Of a stretch of 38,499 nt of DNA, positions 4,671 to 24,129 are shown in pieces. The position numbers were made by a program, and so were the translations under genes. The notes beneath the pieces are model-generated. The model was not told where the DNA came from, ran no database searches, and was given only the letters and a program-made list of their open reading frames with translations. Within the stretch, counting starts at the first letter, position 1, and each line of letters opens with the position of its first letter. The stretch spans positions 1-38,499 of the forward strand of contig QZKS01000001.1 of the NCBI GenBank assembly GCA_003599865.1. Reading direction: 5' to 3'. The DNA is from Desulfobacteraceae bacterium (GTDB taxonomy: Bacteria; Desulfobacterota; Desulfobacteria; Desulfobacterales; SURF-7).

Positions 4671-6677
4671 ATGGATTCAATAAAAAGGTTGATCCGCATT
4701 GTGACTGTTGGTCTGAAAAAAAGAATCAAGATGACCGGGCAGGAAAAAATATCGATATCGACAATCCAAAAACAGTTAGCCGGGTTATCCGATACGATGG
4801 GAACCATTATCGCCGGTTCGGAACCTGACTTTATCCATCTTGGGAGCGATCTTCAGTCAATTTTCAGCACGGCCGTCAGACTTTCCGATATTGTGATTCA
4901 AAGCGCACAAGGATGCGCTGATGATTCGGAAGAAAAAATACTGGCCCGGATCAGCGGATTTGCCAAGGAATCTGTTGACAAACTCAAGGGGTGCCGGAAT
5001 CGAATCTCTGAAAGCCTGACCATTCTTGATTCCGGAAAAAGTGATCTGGAGCGGCTGGCGGGCTTGTGTTCCAAACAGGAAAAAATTTCCATGCTGCTGA
5101 ATGTGATTGCCTTGAACATTGCCGTGGAAAGCAGCCGGAACAGGCAGTCGAGCGAAATGTTTATTGTTTTTGCCCAGGAAATCAAACAGGTTTCCGAAAA
5201 CATGAAAGACATTACCCGGAATCTGTATGAAGATTCTGTCGCGACCTGTAACCGGCAGACAACCATTCAGACGGAAATTGCAGTCCGGTTCAACCAGTTG
5301 TCCACCGTAACCGTCGGCGCGGAAAACATTGTATCGGAAGCTGTCAAAAAAATCGACCAGCTCTCTATTCTGTTTGAAGATGCCATGCAAAACGGAATCC
5401 GGTATTCCAAAGAAATATCGGATCAGGTCGCCGAAGTCGTCATGGCCATTCAGTTCCATGATATTGTGCGGCAGCAGATCGAACATGTTGTGCAGGCTCT
5501 GGCGGATACGGAACGGTTATGCCGGGAAGAAGATACCGATGCCGATACCGGAAACGTGCCGGGAAAAATTTACGCCATCCTGCAGATCCAGGCAGCCCAG
5601 ATACAGCAGGTCATCCTTGAAATTGAGAATGCGGAAGGCCGGATCACCCGATCTCTTGAAAACATAGAAGTCAAGGCTTCCCGGCTGGTTGCCTGTCTGT
5701 CGGAGTCTTTTGTCTCCCGGAACGGCGCTGAAGGTTCTTCGGACAACCCTTTTGTCATTCTGATTCAAAGTCTTGAAGAACTGGGTCTTCTGCTGAATCA
5801 GGCATATGACCTGCAGTCTCTTATGGATGGTGCCGCCACAGAGGCCTCATCATCGGTCAGCGGACTGGCAGGGCATACGAAAAAGGTGCAGGATATCAGC
5901 CTGGATCTCCATCGCAAGGCGTTGAATGCGATCATAAAATCCGCCCATCTGGGAGAAAGGGGTGCAACCTTTGAAATTCTGGCGCAGGAAGTTACGGCTG
6001 TTTCCGAAGAATCAAATCTTTTTGCGAACCAGGTCATCCGGATGATTGATTCTGTTTCCAGCCTTGCAGGCAGGCTGGGAGGAGCCGGCCAAAACAGAAT
6101 CGGAGAAGAAGTAAAAGAGATGAACCGGTCTGAATTTCAAGTGGATGAAGAGGTAAAAAAAATAAAAGATACCTATCGCTTGTTTCTGGAAAATACCTCC
6201 CGCGCATCCGAAATATCGAAAGAGCTTGAAACATCCATTCGCGAAACCAGGGTGTTTGTATCATTTCTGAAAACCCTGCTGGAACAACTGAATGTTCCTT
6301 TGAAAGAACTTGAAAAAGCAATGGAAGAATTGTCCCCCTGGAAGAATGACGGTGAAAATCAGGCAGAGGATATTCCGGATGCTGCAAAGCGGTATACCAT
6401 GGAAAGCGAACGAGTCATCCATTTACAGATCACGGGCCAACACCATCTGCAGGAGAAGCAGGAGAAGCAGGAGAAGCAGGATGATCCTGTATCTGATCTT
6501 CCCTCAGAGGAAGCACCTGTAGAACTCTTTATAGATGATGACCAAACCAATATCGAGCTGTTTGATGAAACCTCTTCTGATCCGGAATCCGTTGAATGGT
6601 TTGAGTCCGATCCTGACGCAAAGGATCATGTGGAAGCGCCGGAAGAAGAAAAGAACGATAATATAGAACTCTTTTAA
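4671..6677 (+). CDS. Soluble coiled-coil chemotaxis protein with CheZ-like helix
   Basis: First gene of the che cluster, 668 residues, with no membrane segment and mostly long helices with coiled-coil character. Two regions resemble receptor-like helices, for example residues near 143-160 and 422-450 (ALNAIIKSAHLGERG). The segment QFHDIVRQQIEHV around residue 264 carries Asp264 and Gln268 in the D-x3-Q spacing of the CheZ phosphatase motif (DLTGQ). The acidic C-terminal tail contains three short ELF motifs (PVELF, TNIELF and the terminal DNIELF), recalling the CheY-binding C-terminal peptide of CheZ. The family is often labelled simply as methyl-accepting protein. A CheY-P phosphatase or scaffold role is my inference, and no CheC, CheX or CheZ is otherwise present. 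A start at 4731 is possible, since neither ATG has a clear ribosome-binding site. Confidence 0.75.
   Translation: MDSIKRLIRIVTVGLKKRIKMTGQEKISISTIQKQLAGLSDTMGTIIAGSEPDFIHLGSDLQSIFSTAVRLSDIVIQSAQGCADDSEEKILARISGFAKESVDKLKGCRNRISESLTILDSGKSDLERLAGLCSKQEKISMLLNVIALNIAVESSRNRQSSEMFIVFAQEIKQVSENMKDITRNLYEDSVATCNRQTTIQTEIAVRFNQLSTVTVGAENIVSEAVKKIDQLSILFEDAMQNGIRYSKEISDQVAEVVMAIQFHDIVRQQIEHVVQALADTERLCREEDTDADTGNVPGKIYAILQIQAAQIQQVILEIENAEGRITRSLENIEVKASRLVACLSESFVSRNGAEGSSDNPFVILIQSLEELGLLLNQAYDLQSLMDGAATEASSSVSGLAGHTKKVQDISLDLHRKALNAIIKSAHLGERGATFEILAQEVTAVSEESNLFANQVIRMIDSVSSLAGRLGGAGQNRIGEEVKEMNRSEFQVDEEVKKIKDTYRLFLENTSRASEISKELETSIRETRVFVSFLKTLLEQLNVPLKELEKAMEELSPWKNDGENQAEDIPDAAKRYTMESERVIHLQITGQHHLQEKQEKQEKQDDPVSDLPSEEAPVELFIDDDQTNIELFDETSSDPESVEWFESDPDAKDHVEAPEEEKNDNIELF
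6450..6481 (+). repeat. 9-bp tandem repeat inside the coiled-coil protein gene
   Basis: CAGGAGAAG is repeated exactly three times (6450-6476) and then partly (CAGGA), encoding a Gln-Glu-Lys run in the linker before the acidic tail. The copies are identical, so copy number could vary in frame without breaking the gene. Confidence 0.8.
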
Positions 6678-6699: not shown

Positions 6700-7851
6700 A
6701 TGAAGCCTATGGAGCCCAGCCGAAAAGGCAAAATTTTGATCGTAGACGACGCGCCTTCCGTGGCAAGATTCACCAGTGAGATTCTGAAAACGGAATATCA
6801 CATCCGGATTGTCTCAAATGGTGTGGAAGCCCTGGAGGTTATCAGCACATATCACCCGGATATTGTCCTGCTGGATGTTGTCATGCCGGGAATGAACGGC
6901 ATTGAGGTGTGCAAAAAAATCCGAACCGAAAAGAGTTTTGCTTTCATGAAGATTATCATGATTTCCAGCAAAACCCATATAGAAGAGCGAATTCAGGGAT
7001 ATGAAGCCGGCGCTGATGATTATATCGGCAAACCGTTTAAAAAAGAGGAACTGCTGGCCAAGGTGCGTGTTTTTTATCGTCTGAAACTGGTGGAAGACCA
7101 GCTGCATGAAATGAATGAAAAACTCAATGAGCAGGTCCGGATTCGGACGGATCAACTGATTGATTCCGCCAGAATGGCCGCCATCGGAAAATCAACAGCC
7201 GGAATCGTCCATAACCTGAACAATCCGCTCCAGGCCATCCTCGGCTATTCCGAGCTTCTTGAATTGAAATCTCCGGAAAATCCGATGATCCAAAAACTGA
7301 GGTCTTCGGCCATGCTCATGAAGGAAATGATCGCAACGATTCTGACAACCAGCCGGGAGGAAAACTGCATCAAGGTCGACAATATTGATCTGAACACGCT
7401 CCTCAGAAATCAGATTGAAATGATGAAGGCAAACAATTTTTTCAAGCATCAGGTAAAAACGGAAATCGATCTGCAGCCGCTCCCCTTGTACAAGGGAGTA
7501 TACGCCCACTTCAGCCAGAGTCTGGGCAATCTGATCAAGAATGCCGTGGATGCCATGTATCAGACGGCGAACAAGGTACTGTCCGTTCAGACAAAAGCCG
7601 ATGAACAAACCATTCAAATCACCATATCCGATACCGGATGCGGAATGGACCCGGAGACATTACCGAAAATTTTTGATCCGTTTTTCACGACCAAGCCCTT
7701 GTCGGCCCCAAACGATGAACCTTGCGGCACCGGAATCGGGCTTGCCTCCACCCAGGAAATGATTGAGGCCTATGGCGGAAAGATTGATGTTGAATCCCGG
7801 ACCGGGATCGGTTCCCGTTTTACCGTAACGCTTCCCCTGATAATCAGATAA
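6700..7851 (+). CDS. Receiver-histidine kinase hybrid
   Basis: A 383-residue soluble protein. Residues 11-125 form a receiver domain with the acidic pair in VDD and phospho-acceptor Asp59 (VLLDVVMP). A coiled coil (about 128-158) leads to a HisKA-type dimerisation domain with His171 in the H box (GIVHNLNNPLQ). The C-terminal HATPase_c domain has the N box (NLIKNAVDAM), G1 (DTGCGM), F box (FDPFFTTK) and G2 (GTGIGLAS). All catalytic elements look intact. It follows the preceding gene by 22 bp, which places it in the che operon. It has no membrane or sensory domain of its own, so its input is probably phosphorylation of its receiver, perhaps by CheA, and its output may go to a response regulator outside the window (inference). 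A start at 6709 is also possible. Confidence 0.92.
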   Translation: MKPMEPSRKGKILIVDDAPSVARFTSEILKTEYHIRIVSNGVEALEVISTYHPDIVLLDVVMPGMNGIEVCKKIRTEKSFAFMKIIMISSKTHIEERIQGYEAGADDYIGKPFKKEELLAKVRVFYRLKLVEDQLHEMNEKLNEQVRIRTDQLIDSARMAAIGKSTAGIVHNLNNPLQAILGYSELLELKSPENPMIQKLRSSAMLMKEMIATILTTSREENCIKVDNIDLNTLLRNQIEMMKANNFFKHQVKTEIDLQPLPLYKGVYAHFSQSLGNLIKNAVDAMYQTANKVLSVQTKADEQTIQITISDTGCGMDPETLPKIFDPFFTTKPLSAPNDEPCGTGIGLASTQEMIEAYGGKIDVESRTGIGSRFTVTLPLIIR

Positions 7852-8558: not shown

Positions 8559-10643
8559 ATGAACGATGCCGTTCAGCACATTGAAGTGTATCGACAGGAA
8601 GCAGAAGAACTCCTGGTCGAAATTGAGGAAACCGTTCTGGACCTGGAAGAGAATCCGGATGATACCGAAGCCATCAATAAATTGTTCCGTGCCATGCACA
8701 CCATCAAGGGCTCCGGTGCCATGTTCGGATTTGATGAAATCGCGGAATTTACCCATCATGTGGAAACCACGCTCGATAAGGTCAGGAATGGTGACATCCC
8801 GGTTTCCAGAGAGCTCATTGACCTGATCCTCCTCTCAAGGGACCGGATCAATGAAATGCTGAATGCCGCGCAAAAAGGAATTACGGTAACCCAGGAAGCC
8901 GGTGAAACCATCATCGCATCCCTGAATGCCTTACAGCCGGGCAAAACTGCCGGCAACCCTCAACAAGAAAAAAAGACAGCGCCCGCAACGCCGACCAGGG
9001 ATCCGGAAGCAGAAAATACCTATCGAATCCGCTTCTCCCCCCATCAGGATCTGTTTTTATCCGGGACCGAACCGGCCCTGATCATTGAAGAGTTGAGAAA
9101 TCTGGGCCAAGCAACGATTGTCGCCCAGTGGAAGGATATTCCGCCCTTTTCTTCTTTCCATCCGGAATCCTGCTATCTATACTGGGACATTATCCTGACA
9201 ACCTCAAAAACCATAAATGAAATCAAGGATGTTTTTATCTTTGTCGAGGACAACTGCGATCTGTCGATAGAACTCCTGGATGATGATCAGATACCCGTTG
9301 ACGAAAAAGAACCCAAAAAAATCGGTGAAATCCTTCTGGAACGAAATGACCTGAAGCCGGAGGACCTGCAAGGAGTTCTGTCCGGCCAGAAACGAATCGG
9401 AGAACTGCTCGTTGAGGCCAAAATCATTGATCCAAAGCTGGTGGAATCCGCTTTGGCAGAGCAACAGCATGTCAGACAGGTCGCTGCAAAACAGAAAGAA
9501 AAACAGGCGGCTTCCAGTATCCGGGTCCCTGCGGACAAACTGGATACCCTGGTGGATCTGGTCGGTGAAATGGTGACCGCCCAGGCAAGGCTCAACCAGA
9601 AAGCGTCCGAACTGAACCATCCGGACCTGACCCTGATCACGGAAGAAATCGAGAGACTGGTGGCCGGATTGCGGGACAATACCATGAGCCTTCGCATGCT
9701 GCAGATCGGTGTGACATTCAGCAGCTTCAAACGTCTGGTTCGGGATCTTTCCAATGAGCTGGGCAAGGAGATCAACCTCACCACGGAAGGAGGAGAAACC
9801 GAGCTGGACAAGACGGTCATCGAACGCCTGAATGATCCCCTGGTTCATATCATCCGCAATTCAATTGACCACGGCATCGAAAGTCCGGAGGTTCGACAAA
9901 AGGCCGGCAAGCCAAAAGAAGGGACAATCAAGCTATCTGCCGAACATTCCGGTGCCCACGTGGCCATACGGATATCCGATGACGGAGCAGGCCTGGATAC
10001 CGAGGTCATTCGTGCCAAGGCTATGGAAAGAGGCCTGATCACTTCGGATGAAAACCTGACGGACAAGGATATCTTTCAGTTTATTTTCGCACCCGGTTTT
10101 TCAACGGCAAAATCCGTGACCGATGTGTCCGGCCGGGGTGTCGGCATGGATGTGGTCAAACGGAATGTGGAATCCCTTCGCGGAACCATTGAAATCGAGA
10201 GTCAAAAAGGAAATGGGACCACCATCACGTTGAAACTGCCGCTTACCCTCGCCATCATTGACGGATTGATGGTTAACATCGGAAACGATTATTTTATCCT
10301 TCCCTTATCTTCCGTAGAGGAATGTGTGGAACTGGACAAAAAAAAGGCGGACAAGGTCAAAGGAAGGAATATCCTCAATGTCCGGGGGGAGGTTGTACCC
10401 TATATTCGTTTGCGGGACCAGTTTGAAATCCAGCAGGAAAGACCGGAACTGGAGCATATTGTCATTACCGAAGTGAATGGGGAAAGAATCGGGTTTGTCG
10501 TAGATAGCGTGATCGGCGGACATCAGACAGTGATCAAATCCCTGGGACCGGCATTCAAGGATATCCAGGATATCTCCGGCGCAACCATTCTGGGAGACGG
10601 CACGGTTGCCCTGATTCTGGATGTGAACAAACTCGCTCGGTAA
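8559..10643 (+). CDS. cheA: Chemotaxis histidine kinase CheA
   Basis: Core kinase of the array, 694 residues. The order is an HPt (P1) domain with phosphorylatable His47 in HTIKGSGAMFGF, a P2-like region (about 150-245), an insert, the dimerisation domain (from about 315), the HATPase domain with HIIRNSIDHGIE, DDGAGL and GRGVGMDVV, and a C-terminal CheW-like domain (about 560-690). The insert at about 255-305 contains two tandem IGE(I/L)L...Q units of about 23-26 residues. They resemble the N-terminal helical modules of type II secretion ATPases (GspE/MshE-N). All catalytic boxes are intact. The ribosome-binding site is AGGTGG. CheA phosphorylates CheY and CheB and is controlled by the receptors through CheW. 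Confidence 0.96.
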   Translation: MNDAVQHIEVYRQEAEELLVEIEETVLDLEENPDDTEAINKLFRAMHTIKGSGAMFGFDEIAEFTHHVETTLDKVRNGDIPVSRELIDLILLSRDRINEMLNAAQKGITVTQEAGETIIASLNALQPGKTAGNPQQEKKTAPATPTRDPEAENTYRIRFSPHQDLFLSGTEPALIIEELRNLGQATIVAQWKDIPPFSSFHPESCYLYWDIILTTSKTINEIKDVFIFVEDNCDLSIELLDDDQIPVDEKEPKKIGEILLERNDLKPEDLQGVLSGQKRIGELLVEAKIIDPKLVESALAEQQHVRQVAAKQKEKQAASSIRVPADKLDTLVDLVGEMVTAQARLNQKASELNHPDLTLITEEIERLVAGLRDNTMSLRMLQIGVTFSSFKRLVRDLSNELGKEINLTTEGGETELDKTVIERLNDPLVHIIRNSIDHGIESPEVRQKAGKPKEGTIKLSAEHSGAHVAIRISDDGAGLDTEVIRAKAMERGLITSDENLTDKDIFQFIFAPGFSTAKSVTDVSGRGVGMDVVKRNVESLRGTIEIESQKGNGTTITLKLPLTLAIIDGLMVNIGNDYFILPLSSVEECVELDKKKADKVKGRNILNVRGEVVPYIRLRDQFEIQQERPELEHIVITEVNGERIGFVVDSVIGGHQTVIKSLGPAFKDIQDISGATILGDGTVALILDVNKLAR

Positions 10644-10695
10644 CAAGGTAATCAGATCCATCAACACAAGAACCGCACACCTGTCAATTGAATCT

Positions 10696-10701
10696 TATAA
10701 T
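10696..10701 (+). promoter_or_regulatory. Isolated TATAAT in the cheA-receptor gap
   Basis: A consensus -10 hexamer lies 68 bp before the carbonic anhydrase-receptor start, in the longest gap (126 bp) between che genes. No matching -35 box is visible at 16-18 bp, so an internal promoter is only a possibility. Confidence 0.2.
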
Positions 10702-10769
10702 GAATCTGCTGCCTGATCTGAAAACCTCTTTTCATACTTGAAAAACGGTATACAAACAGGAGAAAAAAA

Positions 10770-13418
10770 ATGAAAAGAACCGCATCTGCTGTTTTAATTC
10801 TGCTTTCCATTGCCTTATTGTCTTCCAGCAGTTTTGCTTTTACATCCGGCGCCCACTGGGGATACAAAGGTGCGGAAGGTCCGGCAAACTGGGGAAAACT
10901 GTCACCGACATACAGCCAGTGCAGTGCCGGTATCAACCAATCCCCGATCGATATTGGCAAAACAATACCAATCGATACCGGCGGGCTTGAATTTCAGTAT
11001 CGGAATTCTCCGATGGATGTGGTGAATAACGGCCATGCCATACAGGCCAATTATGCCCCCGGCAGCATGCTGACCATTGGCGGCAAACCCTATGAACTGG
11101 TCCAGTTTCACTTTCACAGTCCCAGCGAAAACACTCATCAGGGAAAGCCCTATGATATGGAGGTTCATCTGGTTCACAAAGATGCAAGCGGCAACCTGGC
11201 GGTAGTGGGAGTTTTTATGCAATCCGGCGCCGAGAATCCTCTGATTCGGAAAATATGGGACAGTGTCCCCCATGAAGTCAACCAGATCAATTCCACGGGG
11301 CAGACCATCAATGCTTCATCCCTGCTCCCTGCCGATCAGTCCTTTTATCATTTCACAGGCTCCCTGACCACCCCCCCCTGTTCCGAAGGGGTCAAATGGT
11401 ATGTAATGAAAAATCCAATACAGGTTTCCGAGGCACAGGTGAATCATTTTCTGTCCATCATCGGTCCCAATGCAAGACCGGTTCAGCCCCTGAACAAACG
11501 GACGGTTTTTGAAGTCACCGTGGCTGCCTCAGCTTCCGGTCATGGGACTGCTGTACCTTCTCAAACCGCACATGCGGCCGCCGACCACGGTGCTGCCCGA
11601 ATCACGGCCGTCCCAACAGTGATGGCAGCAACCCATGAAAAACCGGGCAAAAGCATAAATGACTCGATGCGTGACAGCGGACATGCTCCTGAAGAAAAAT
11701 CAACCCATCCGATCAGGAGTAAAGAGAACGGTTTTTCAACAACCGCATGGATCCTGATACTTGCCGGCATTCTGGCAGTGGCCGGTTTATTTATTTTTAT
11801 GGCAAAGGGAGGAATGGAAATGGATTTTACCCGCAACATGAAAGTCGGTACCCGAATCGGAATCATCATCGCCAGCCTGCTCGGTTTGATGCTTGTGATC
11901 GCCGTTGTCAGTTTCTGGAAATTTTCGGTAATCGGAGGGGAAATCAAGGCAATTGTAGAGGAGGATATTCCTCTGACGGCGATCATCACCCAAGTGGAAA
12001 GCAATCAGATGGAACAGGCGATCTGGTTTGAAAGGGCGTTAAAATATGGGGGAACAAAGAATGCCGATGGCGTGAAACAAGCCTGGGAAAAATTCAACAG
12101 TCATAAAGGAGTCATTGACGAGAACATCCAAAAAGGTGAAACCATTGCCGAGGAGATCATCCGCAATGCCTCCGACATCGAGATTCGCCGGGAGGGAGAA
12201 ATCGCCCAGAGTGCTCTGGCAACGATAAAAAAACACCATGATGAGTTCATGGAATCCTCCGGCGAGATGTTTGGTGCTCTTCTGGCCGGGAATCTTCATC
12301 AGGCCGAGCAAATTTCCGAAGGAGTCGAAAAGATAGAACAAGATCTGGAAAACGAGATCAAGGATCTTCTGTTCAAGATTGAAAAATTCACCGAAGAGGC
12401 CGCACTCAAGGTAGAAGAAGATGAAGTGATGGCGCAAAATACCGTACTTGTGATCAGCATTTTTGCTGCCATCCTGGGGCTTGCCCTTGGCATCGTGATT
12501 ACGCGGGGGATTACGAAGGTGCTGCAGGACGTGAAATCCGTCGCCGACAGCGTGGCGGCCGGCAGCCGGCAGATGTCCGCCGGTTCGGAAGAATTGTCCC
12601 AGGGCGCCACCGAACAGGCATCATCGGTGGAGGAGGCCTCGGCATCCATGGAACAGATGTCGGCCAACATCCGGCAGAATGCGGAAAATGCCAATGAAAC
12701 CGAAAAAATTTCCCGCAAGGCCGCCACAGATGCGGATGAAAGCGGGAAAGCCGTCCGACAGGCAGTCGGCGCCATGCGGGAGATCGTGGAAAAAATCGGT
12801 TTTGTGGAAGAGATCGCCCGCCAGACCAATATGCTGGCGCTGAATGCCGCGATCGAAGCGGCCCGTGCCGGCGAACACGGCAAAGGATTTGCCGTGGTGG
12901 CGGCAGAAGTCCGCAAGCTGGCCGAACGAAGCCAGATTTCCGCCAATGAAATCAGCCAGCTTTCCCTGACCTCCCGGGATACTTCGGAAAAGGCCGGCGA
13001 AATGCTGGAAAACCTGGTCCCCAACATCCAGAAAACCGCCGACCTGATCAGTGAAATCAACGCAGCCTGTTCCGAACAGAACAGCGGCGTCGCTCAAATC
13101 AATTCCGCCATTCAGCAACTGGACCAGGTGATTCAGCAGAATGCCTCGTCAGCCGAGGAGACGGCATCCATGGCCGAAGAGATGTCCTCCCAGGCCGAAC
13201 AACTTCAGGAATCGGTGGCGACATTGATCTCAACACAAGACAAGAATAAAACGCGAAACAGAGCAGCAGTCCATACGCATGCCCCCGCGCATCCGACCAA
13301 ACCTGAAAATATACTCAAAAAAACGACCAAATCGGTTCCTGCCAAAAACAAAACAGGCATCATGCTCGATATGGAAAACAAGCACGATGAAATGGACAGT
13401 GAGTTTGAAAAATACTAA
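10770..13418 (+). CDS. Alpha-carbonic anhydrase-chemoreceptor fusion
   Basis: An 882-residue protein. Residues 1-23 are a signal peptide. Residues 24-255 are an alpha-carbonic anhydrase with zinc ligands His114, His116 ([10 protein letters not shown]) and His133 (EVHLVH). It also has the gate residue Glu120, Thr200-Thr201 (SLTTPPC), proton-shuttle His89 (NGHAIQ) and a Cys51/Cys204 disulfide pair, so an active enzyme hydrating CO2 is predicted. A His/Ala/Thr-rich linker leads to a membrane helix (about 326-345). A second helix (about 363-384), a periplasmic helical domain, a third helix (about 557-579) and, with no clear HAMP domain, an MCP signalling domain with [17 protein letters not shown] follow. 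The tail ends in EFEKY. Three helices place the enzyme in the periplasm and the signalling tip in the cytoplasm. It lies between cheA and cheW. CO2, bicarbonate or pH sensing is inferred. AGGAGA precedes the start. Confidence 0.95.
11805..11822 (+). promoter_or_regulatory. Internal ribosome-binding site and start codons at the fusion joint
   Basis: AAGGGAGG at 11805-11812 is a strong Shine-Dalgarno sequence, followed in frame by ATG at 11814 and ATG at 11820 (7 nt spacing). Translation from either would give a conventional receptor starting [10 protein letters not shown], like its neighbours, without the carbonic anhydrase and first membrane helix. It could be a relic of gene fusion or an active second start. 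Confidence 0.5.
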
Positions 13419-13459
13419 TTTTGATTTTCAATACACCTTAATATTTAAGGAGGCCCATA

Positions 13460-13978
13460 ATGAAAGAACAAGCTGCGTTTGAAACAGGACAGTTTTTAAC
13501 CTTCAAGCTGGATGAAGAGGTTTATGCCCTGGACATCCTGCAGGTTCGTGAAGTGCTGGACTATACCACCATCACCAAAGTGCCGAAAATGCCGAAATTC
13601 ATGCGGGGCGTGATCAATCTCCGGGGAGGCGTTGTTCCGGTCATTGATCTCCGATTGAAATTCGGACTGGACATCGCAGATAACACGGTGGATACCTGTA
13701 TCATCATCATGGAGATCACCCTGGATGGAGAAACAACCCTGCTGGGCGCTCTGGCGGATTCCGTTCAGGAGGTCATCACCCTGGATTCCGGGCAGATCGA
13801 ACCCCCGCCGAAAATCGGAACCCGGCTCAATACGGAATTTATCAAAGGCATGGGCAAAAAAAATGACGACTTCATTATCCTGCTCGACATTGACCGTGTA
13901 TTCTCATCCGAAGAACTTTCCCTTGTTCAGGGAGACCATGAACAAAAAGAAGAATTGAGCCAGGCTCATATGGCCTAA
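13460..13978 (+). CDS. cheW: Chemotaxis coupling protein CheW
   Basis: A 172-residue single CheW domain that bridges receptors and CheA. Typical features are FKLDEEVYALDILQVREVL near the N-terminus, the RGVINLRGGVVPVIDLR loop, and DDFIILLDIDRVF near the C-terminus. An acidic, Gln-rich tail of about 20 residues follows. AAGGAGG lies 7 nt before the start. It sits 41 bp after the carbonic anhydrase receptor and 35 bp before the next receptor, within one transcriptional direction. It is the only stand-alone CheW in the window. Confidence 0.96.
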   Translation: MKEQAAFETGQFLTFKLDEEVYALDILQVREVLDYTTITKVPKMPKFMRGVINLRGGVVPVIDLRLKFGLDIADNTVDTCIIIMEITLDGETTLLGALADSVQEVITLDSGQIEPPPKIGTRLNTEFIKGMGKKNDDFIILLDIDRVFSSEELSLVQGDHEQKEELSQAHMA

Positions 13979-21840: not shown

Positions 21841-24129
21841 ATGCGTTTTATCCATAATATCAAGGTCAGTGGTAAACTGATCATCGGATTTTTCATCATG
21901 ATCATTCTGATGGCAGGTATCAGTCTTTCCGGATTTTCCGGTATCCGGAAAATACAAAGCCGACTGAATGCGGTCTTCATGGTCAATCTGCCCAGTGTGG
22001 ATTTTTTGATCCAGACAGACCGGGATTTGCAGCAGCTTCTGGTTTCCGAACGTTCCATGATTTTTGCAAATGTCAAAACCGACGAATTTCAGAATCTCGT
22101 GAACGACTATGAAGAAAACTTCAAGCAGTCCGTGGAACGGTGGAACCAATACAAAGCGCTTGACATCAGTCCGGAGGAAAGAGCACTGATTCCCCGATAT
22201 GAACAAGTGAGAACGGAATGGGAAAAAATCTCCCGGGAAATTGTCAATGGAAGAATATCGGACACGCGCGAGGGAAGGCGCAAGGCACTTGATCTTTCCC
22301 TTGGAACGGCAAAGGCGAAATTCGAAGAAATGCGCGGATACCTGGATCAACTCACCGGGATCAGCCTGGCAAAGGCGGACAACGCCCATCAAACCACCGG
22401 GCCGATTTACCGAATGACCCTGGTCGTGCTCTTTTCCATCACCGGCCTCGGTCTGCTGCTGGCTGTTATGATCGTATGGATACTAAGCCGCGCCATCACC
22501 AAGCCGATCCGCCTGATCGCCGAAGGCGCCAGACGATTTTCCATCGGGGATATCCAGCTGGAAGGAATGGACCTGAATGCCATCGCCGAAATCAATTCCA
22601 GAAAAGACGAACTGGGAGATACCGGACGCGCATTTTCCCAGCTGATCGCGTATATGAAGGAAAAAGCCGAAGCCATGGGAAGGATCGCCGACGGCAATCT
22701 GGATATTCTGGTGGAAAAAAAATCCGAACAGGACCAGCTTGGTGCGTCTCTTATCAAGATGATCCATAATCTCAATGTGATCATGAAAGATCTCTACACC
22801 GCTATTGAGCAGGTAGACAATGGTTCGCGGCAGGTTTCCGACTCCAGTCAATCCCTTTCGCAGGGTGCGACCCAGCAGGCTGCCTCTCTGGAAGAAATCA
22901 CCAGCTCCATGACCCAGATCGGTTCCCAGACCAAAACCAATGCGGAAAATGCCGGTCAGGCAAACCAGCTTGGCCTTTCCACAAAAGAGGCATCCAGCCA
23001 CGGTGTTCAGCAGATGGAATTGATGACAAAGGCCATGGACGAGATCAATCAGTCCAGCAAAAAAATCGCGAAAATCATCAAAACCATTGATGACATTGCA
23101 TTTCAAACCAACCTTCTGGCACTGAACGCCGCGGTGGAGGCGGCTCGTGCCGGCCACCACGGCAAGGGATTTGCCGTGGTGGCCCAGGAGGTGCGTTCCC
23201 TGGCCGCTAAAAGCGCAAAGGCCGCCCAGGAAACCGCCGAGATGATTGAATCCGGAAATCAAAAAGTGGATCATGGATTGAATATTGCCGCACAGACCAG
23301 CGAATCCCTTGCCGGCATCAATGAAGGAATCACCAAGGTAACGGACATCATCAATGAAATTGCCGCTGCCAGCAATGAGCAGGCCCAGGGAATCTCCCAG
23401 GTCAATATCGGTCTGTCCCAGATCGACAGTGTGACCCAGCAGAACACGGCCAACGCAGAGGAAACATCCGCCGCAGCCGTAGAGCTTGCCGGCCAGGCCT
23501 CCCATGTACGAAACCTTTTATCCCGGTTCAAACTCTCTTCGACGATTCATCAATCTGAGAAAACCCATTATCCTCCTGCCCGGATGGTGGCCCAGCCCGC
23601 TGAAAAACTGATCAACTGGGGTCCTCAATATTCCGTCGGCGTCCGGAATATGGACCAGCAGCACATGCGGCTCATCGACCTCATCAACGAATTGTATTCC
23701 GCGCTCAAGTCGGGGAAGGCCGTTGATGTGCAGGAATCCATACTCGATGGTCTGATTTCCTATACCCGGGAACACTTCGCAAAAGAAGAAGCCCTGCTTC
23801 GGGTGCACAAATTCCAAGGGCTGGCGGAGCACGAAAAAATGCACCGCGGGTTTGAGGCCAAAATTTCTGAATATCAGGAAAAAATGCGGTCCGGAGCCTC
23901 TCTTGGAGTGGATGCAATAAACTTTCTCAAGGATTGGCTGGTCAACCACATTCAGAAAGCAGACAAACAATATGAGCATGCCGTGGGCGATAACAAACCG
24001 GCAAATATCCGTCGTCCAGTACCGGATTATCAATGGGGCGTACCGGCTCCGGCAAGGGTGAACGATGATGGAAGGGCCGACCCTCGCCAAATCATCCGGC
24101 TCGATGACGAGGAGTTCGGAAAATACTGA
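21841..24129 (+). CDS. Methyl-accepting chemotaxis protein with C-terminal hemerythrin domain
   Basis: A 762-residue receptor. It has a periplasmic four-helix-bundle sensor closely related to that of the receptor at 217, two membrane helices, a HAMP domain, an MCP signalling domain and then a bacteriohemerythrin domain (about 589-716). The diiron ligands are all present: His608, His645 and Glu649 (HFAKE), His664 and His668 (HEKMH), and His703 and Asp708 (HIQKAD). The domain would bind O2 in the cytoplasm, as in the known Desulfovibrio receptor DcrH. The signalling hairpin ([27 protein letters not shown]) differs from the other four receptors and is closer to the enterobacterial type. The tail ends DDEEFGKY, keeping the shared pentapeptide after the extra domain. 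AAGGGAG precedes the start, and it converges on the next gene with 6 bp between them. Confidence 0.96.

Follow-up and report, generated by a model that had tools for sequence, protein, structure and literature searches.

A carbonic anhydrase-chemoreceptor fusion and recurrent pairing of its sensor family with three classes of carbonic anhydrase

In a Desulfobacteraceae bacterium, an alpha-carbonic anhydrase (CA) and a chemoreceptor are joined in one protein, and this fusion is genuine. Its gene lies in the stretch of 38,499 nucleotides analysed here (the window). An earlier note on the same DNA had presented the receptor as a single oddity, which was not borne out, since it belongs to an association that recurs. 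New, beyond the lone fusion, is that a single sensor family is repeatedly paired with CAs of three kinds. In the parts of the open-licence literature covered by our search, no recognisable description was found of a chemoreceptor with a CA, whether as a fusion or as a pair.

Results

Structure of the fusion gene

The earlier note described an uninterrupted frame between cheA and cheW that encodes a signal peptide, an alpha-CA, three membrane helices and an MCP signalling domain. All of these elements are present. The gene and its surroundings are organized as follows.

8559..10643, + strand: cheA, upstream of the CA-MCP gene
10637..13448, + strand: stretch missing from congener G003 (locus L204), 2812 bp here and 122 bp there
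10770..13418, + strand: CA-MCP fusion gene of 882 aa, starting with ATG and free of internal stops
10770..10838, + strand: signal peptide, residues 1-23 (hydropathy peak 7-25; putative cleavage site)
10878..11513, + strand: alpha-CA domain, residues 37-248 (PF00194, PDB alignments, residue positions)
11517..11744, + strand: His-rich linker, residues 250-325 (76 aa, 6 His; probably flexible, judging by composition)
11745..11801, + strand: TM1, residues 326-344 (hydropathy)
11856..11912, + strand: TM2, residues 363-381 (hydropathy)
11913..12443, + strand: predicted periplasmic four-helix sensor FER-4HB, about residues 382-558 (alignment A1, model, fold matches, conservation)
12444..12500, + strand: TM3, residues 559-577 (hydropathy)
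12708..13190, + strand: MCP signalling domain, residues 647-807 (PF00015)
13401..13415, + strand: C-terminal pentapeptide EFEKY (translation)
13460..13978, + strand: cheW, downstream of the CA-MCP gene

Both terminal domains exceed their Pfam cut-offs: PF00194 at residues 37-248 with 147.3 bits (cut-off 27) and PF00015 (MCPsignal) at 647-807 with 114.5 bits (cut-off 34.6). The zinc ligands H114, H116 and H133, proton-shuttle H89, T200 and the C51/C204 pair were confirmed as previously assigned, and in the three alignments shown the active-site positions coincide with those of structurally solved carbonic anhydrases. In the PDB, the CA part is matched best by 6im0, itself a carbonic anhydrase (E 3.2e-70). 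Hydropathy likewise supports the signal peptide and the three membrane helices, of which TM2 (363-381) and TM3 (559-577) flank the helical sensor predicted by modelling. These data suggest a topology in which the CA would be outside, with TM1 leading in, a short loop, TM2 leading out, the sensor outside, TM3 leading in and the MCP domain inside. HAMP is not among the Pfam matches listed for the protein. Cache families are also missing from its Pfam matches at E 0.001, and the receptor is thus not classed with dCache receptors.

The start codon is preceded by AGGAG, that of cheW by GGAGG. G+C content is 0.516 in the CA, 0.549 in the linker, 0.454 in TM1 and 0.478 in the four-helix part, with neighbouring genes at 0.49-0.51; the signal peptide lies below these values, at 0.391, and the MCP part above them, at 0.576.

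The surrounding cluster also encodes a CheY-like protein (identified by eye), cheD, cheR, cheB and several other MCPs. The EFEKY terminus presumably corresponds to the CheR/CheB docking pentapeptides, whose pattern it resembles; similar C-termini (EFVKY, DFEKY) occur on other receptors of the cluster and on relatives. One further MCP (21841-24129, + strand) ends in a bacteriohemerythrin domain (NF033749, 131 bits) and we take it to be perhaps an oxygen receptor of DcrH type. A 668-aa protein (4671-6677, + strand) matches MCPsignal weakly (37.4 bits) and CheZ below threshold (20.3 bits).

Empty site in a congener

The DNA of congener G003 is 80.6% identical to the window around cheA and 80.5% around cheW. 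Between these genes it has a clean empty site in place of the fusion gene. FER-4HB receptors were detected in 0/3 other genomes of the genus searched, and in 2/12 genomes of the family, own genome included. Absence from the congeners, together with the clean empty site, indicates that the CA-MCP gene was gained or lost as a single unit.

The chance that the joint is an assembly or frameshift artefact is next to negligible. Misassembly is made unlikely by beta-CA-MCP fusions that share this receptor backbone in other genomes, in which the TM1 region following the CA is similar, and by the empty site of G003; a ribosome-binding-like sequence precedes the CA start. We rejected the artefact on these grounds and on gene order.

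The alpha-CA and its relatives

Bacterial alpha-CAs are normally free exported enzymes. The window CA resembles alpha-CAs (PF00194; PDB 6im0, 4c3t) in family, zinc ligands, proton-shuttle His, Thr and Cys pair, but differs from the free bacterial enzymes in its position N-terminal to a chemoreceptor. It is the sole PF00194 match in its own genome, where no Pro_CA match and one weak gamma-CA-like match (26.8 bits) were obtained.

Further alpha-CA-MCP fusions were not found in 395 genomes of the phylum, 31 of which were matched by PF00194. Among the PF00194 frames listed there, that of the window (898 aa) is the only long one, the others measuring 53-328 aa. In a set of 59 relatives, PF00194 occurred in three and the only long frame was again that of the window. 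A 17-row alpha-CA tree groups the window CA with receptor-linked enzymes of Magnetococcales, not with stand-alone ones (97/95, branch 0.048), but it lacks L135, L136, L137 and L143 owing to the motif used to cut rows and carries no argument here. An AlphaFold2 model of the alpha-CA domain, based on an alignment of three rows, was of low quality (pLDDT 50) and was set aside.

A sensor family with a predicted four-helix fold

The earlier note had also proposed a periplasmic helical domain. AlphaFold2 agrees with it, predicting four long helices (pLDDT 79, pTM 0.59), whereas the Pfam four-helix-bundle family PF12729 (4HB_MCP_1) stays below its cut-off on the window sensor (residues 356-517, 19.8 bits, cut-off 27). 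The window protein is therefore not classed as a member of 4HB_MCP_1; its relatives L076 and L156 score 28.0.

Foldseek returned no match to the sensor model at E 0.001. Structural alignment with VIA-align, which is weak evidence for helical bundles since these match easily, retrieved solved sensors of MCP2201, PcaY_PP, Vc1313, Tsr/Tar and NarQ beside designed bundles. MCP2201 (6its_B) is the best chemoreceptor match (Z 17.2, 145 residues, 2.2 A), with two designed bundles ranking higher. The four-helix fold thus rests on prediction. Judging by helical register, Q413, Q416 and H490 would lie at roughly the same level of the bundle.

We named the family FER-4HB after a frequent F-E-R stretch. 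The TM-sensor part of seven receptors was aligned (alignment A1) and used as search query. Own genome included, it matched 16/242 genomes of the order (E 1e-12) and 5/395 of the phylum (E 1e-15); within the order Magnetococcales it matched 27/48 genomes (E 1e-12). In an alignment of 23 MCP sensors, in which L015 and L009 alone represent Magnetococcales, P401, Q416, E421 and H490 are invariant and R422 is conserved in 22/23.

The window receptor resembles four-helix-bundle chemoreceptors such as Tar/Tsr, MCP2201 and PcaY_PP in its predicted sensor fold and its MCP domain. Unlike them, it belongs to a sequence family of its own, marked by P401/Q416/E421/R422/H490, and it carries an exported enzyme at its N terminus and one more membrane helix, with no HAMP match.

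FER-4HB also occurs ahead of outputs resembling adenylate cyclase (L129, L131 and L132, assigned by motif and by eye), and one contig (L123, G152:C93) carries three tandem FER-4HB MCP genes. The three cyclase-like proteins, near which no CA was found, all retain P401, Q416, R422 and H490 (E421 in 2/3). The ligand of the sensor therefore need not be derived from CO2.

Three classes of CA accompany FER-4HB receptors

In L004, L076 and L088, a beta-CA with CSDSR and GHTQC motifs is fused N-terminally to FER-4HB and MCP. In L158, a frame-broken beta-CA remnant (7432-7662, + strand) stands directly before TM1 of an intact receptor; the break may reflect decay or assembly error. L119, whose host belongs to the same family as that of the window, displays the order receptor-cheW-CA with a 220-aa beta-CA that has an apparent signal peptide. 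A CADSR motif in a response-regulator-like ORF of the same locus was judged a chance match and excluded from the beta-CA profile, and the control remained empty.

In seven of the 17 Magnetococcales loci studied (the best 17 of 45 places listed), the receptor gene is immediately preceded by an alpha-CA gene of the same orientation. The CA gene ends 20-63 bases ahead of the receptor frame's first Met. These loci are L185 (two CA genes; the same place as L015), L186, L187, L189, L190, L195 and L197. Their CAs were recognized by Pfam in L015, L186, L190, L195 and L197 and by our own profile in L187 and L189.

The third class is represented by L156, where the receptor frame directly follows a gamma-CA gene that encodes a twin-arginine (Tat-like) stretch. 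The enzyme resembles Cam-type gamma-CAs (PDB 1qre, 1thj; E 2.8e-75), from which it differs in its NCBIfam score (314 bits, below the cut-off of 380), the Tat-like signal and the position before a chemoreceptor gene. With a gamma-CA profile built on two sequences, strong Cam-like matches were obtained in 18 chosen genomes only in G268 (the L156 gene) and G445, and none of the matches in these genomes reached the NCBIfam cut-off. No recognisable MCP adjoins the G445 gene.

A beta-CA search matched 64 of the 242 genomes of the order. Beta-CA in frames longer than 430 aa was found there in three places, all of them MCPs (G238 twice, G088). The same search matched 175 of the 395 phylum genomes, where the fusions counted among the matches listed are a minimum. 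Four loci chosen for long open frames (L152-L155) show no MCP motif, and the stand-alone beta-CAs of L090, L092 and L093 adjoin selB. In L087 (3234-6191, - strand) and L151 (2099-5155, - strand), from genomes of different families, beta-CA is joined to a helical MCP of another kind; of the two, only L151 has a sub-threshold HBM match.

Association of CA with FER-4HB receptors

A CA is linked (fused, adjacent, one gene away or present as remnant) to 14/37 FER-4HB MCP loci and to 0/72 other MCP loci (Fisher p 3.8e-8). When the window and the six loci behind the search alignment are removed, 10/30 remain (p 1.4e-6). Since the loci are related to each other, these p-values overstate the evidence and the independence of the observations.

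The 37 loci comprise 20 from outside Magnetococcales and 17 from inside. The 72 control loci were fetched by the same receptor query (median 16.7 kb), and one of them, L036, is located on the same contig as L123. The three tandem receptors of L123 were counted once, as was the single place formed by L015 and L185. Left out were loci with cyclase-like or unclear effectors (L129, L131-L134), the G385 fragment L159, the G338 hit and 28 weaker Magnetococcales places. The view of neighbouring genes is restricted where a contig end cuts the receptor (L121) and on the short contigs of L009, L076, L128, L191 and L192.

In 23/37 FER-4HB MCP loci, some of them on short contigs, no CA was found in the DNA examined, and it follows that the sensor can function without a linked CA. 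Genomes of the CA-less receptors L005 and L009 gave no match in the Pro_CA search.

Phylogeny of the receptors and their linkers

The window receptor, L158 (beta-CA remnant) and L119 (beta-CA neighbour) form one clade in both trees (100/99). As their CA arrangements differ, the class of CA changes while the pairing persists. The beta-CA fusion of L004 is sister to L005 (100/99), a CA-less receptor in which TM1 follows a signal peptide and a linker-like stub. Similar stubs are present in L006, L096, L156 and L157. This pattern suggests that a fused CA was lost in some lines; alternatively, CA may have been gained onto a pre-existing stub. Parsimony on the 41-row tree requires at least 11 changes of CA linkage, and the pairing is thus labile.

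Linkers of the six fusions measure 63-80 residues. Histidine makes up 31/428 of their residues (42/547 when the L156 stub, with its separate gamma-CA, is included), compared with 7/247 in four CA-less stubs (p 0.01, a small sample). The His-rich linker may serve in buffering or relaying protons, or in holding zinc.

Discussion

Alpha, beta and gamma CAs have no common fold and share only their reaction. Since all three accompany one sensor family, the receptor probably needs catalysis rather than a particular CA conformation. That the CA is either held on a long tether or produced as a separate protein is a further argument that chemistry is what the receptor needs. Uncatalysed hydration of CO2 takes tens of seconds, while bacteria compare gradients within seconds, and an attached CA is therefore physically sensible.

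We consider it rather probable, on comparative sequence grounds, that the fusion is a CA-coupled chemoreceptor, in which an exported CA brings CO2, bicarbonate and protons to equilibrium next to the sensor and so makes it a receptor of CO2, bicarbonate or pH. The enzyme would be exported on a flexible tether in the window, and as a separate protein from neighbouring genes in relatives. It would rapidly convert periplasmic CO2 to HCO3- and H+, and back, beside the four-helix sensor, so that changes of CO2, whether external or caused by the metabolism of the cell itself, would immediately change the species that the sensor reads. The sensor would respond to bicarbonate or pH, perhaps via the polar region of Q416 and H490, and would control CheA through the MCP domain. 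Extended to the family, the proposal has in our estimate an even chance: FER-4HB receptors and their CA partners would form a dedicated class of CO2/bicarbonate chemoreceptors, a general device of enzyme plus sensor with alpha-, beta- and gamma-CA as interchangeable chemical front end, fused or in trans.

The earlier note had left two options, a CO2/bicarbonate/pH receptor or signalling by conformation of the CA. Comparison of relatives lends support to the former, as one sensor family is combined with three unrelated CA classes, either in a fusion or with the CA as a separate protein that is apparently exported. The latter is disfavoured by this pairing and by linkers of 63-80 residues. A CA acting as binding domain, with its occupancy or shape signalling directly through the linker, is suggested by the physical fusion itself. 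It is nevertheless very unlikely, because the same role is filled by three unrelated folds, often as a separate protein, and because the tethers are long.

The array might merely position a periplasmic CA, for instance for bicarbonate uptake or for the capture of CO2 that escapes, with a sensor ligand unrelated to it. CA-less relatives that retain the sensor speak for such an anchor, as do stand-alone beta-CAs of the same type that have an apparent N-terminal anchor and adjoin selB. Yet an anchor needs no constant sensor family, and in L119, L156 and the seven Magnetococcales loci the CA is separate from and unanchored to the receptor but encoded in the same gene group; we regard anchoring as unlikely. 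The CA could also hold local pH and bicarbonate at equilibrium and thereby shield a sensor of another ligand or of pH from bursts of CO2. The anatomy expected is the same as for a CA-coupled chemoreceptor, and chemoreceptor sensors can be pH-sensitive. Such noise control is distinctly unlikely, however, as CAs would be predicted beside many receptor families, and none of the 72 non-FER MCP loci has a flanking CA. That CA genes were brought to receptors by shuffling, without any functional connection, is highly improbable in view of 14/37 against 0/72 loci and of in-frame fusions that keep their catalytic motifs intact, even though labile linkage (at least 11 changes) and a broken CA beside an intact receptor (L158) would fit neutral passengers.

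The closest principle to the CA-receptor pairing, by analogy, appears to be RsbQ and the PAS domain of RsbP, described as a bipartite sensing module of hydrolase and sensor (PMC3183031). As described there, enzyme and sensor domain are encoded by adjacent genes and the sensor is found on several output domains (PMC3183031). In the FER-4HB family, enzyme and sensor are likewise recurrently encoded together (14/37 against 0/72 loci). The systems differ in that an alpha/beta hydrolase and PAS are replaced here by three unrelated classes of CA, exported and sometimes fused, and by MCP output. The chemoreceptor TlpA of Helicobacter pylori was reported to respond to bicarbonate (PMC8406319, PMC5245789). 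It differs from the window receptor in its dCache sensor, and the portions of these papers available to us mention no CA.

Implications for CO2 sensing

To our knowledge, bacterial sensing of CO2 and bicarbonate gradients is poorly understood. If the proposal of a CA-coupled chemoreceptor is true, the window protein would be a dedicated CO2/bicarbonate receptor with a defined chemical front end, and one that is directly testable. The combination of one sensor family with three non-homologous enzymes is strong comparative evidence that the reaction, and not the fold, of the CA matters to the receptor.
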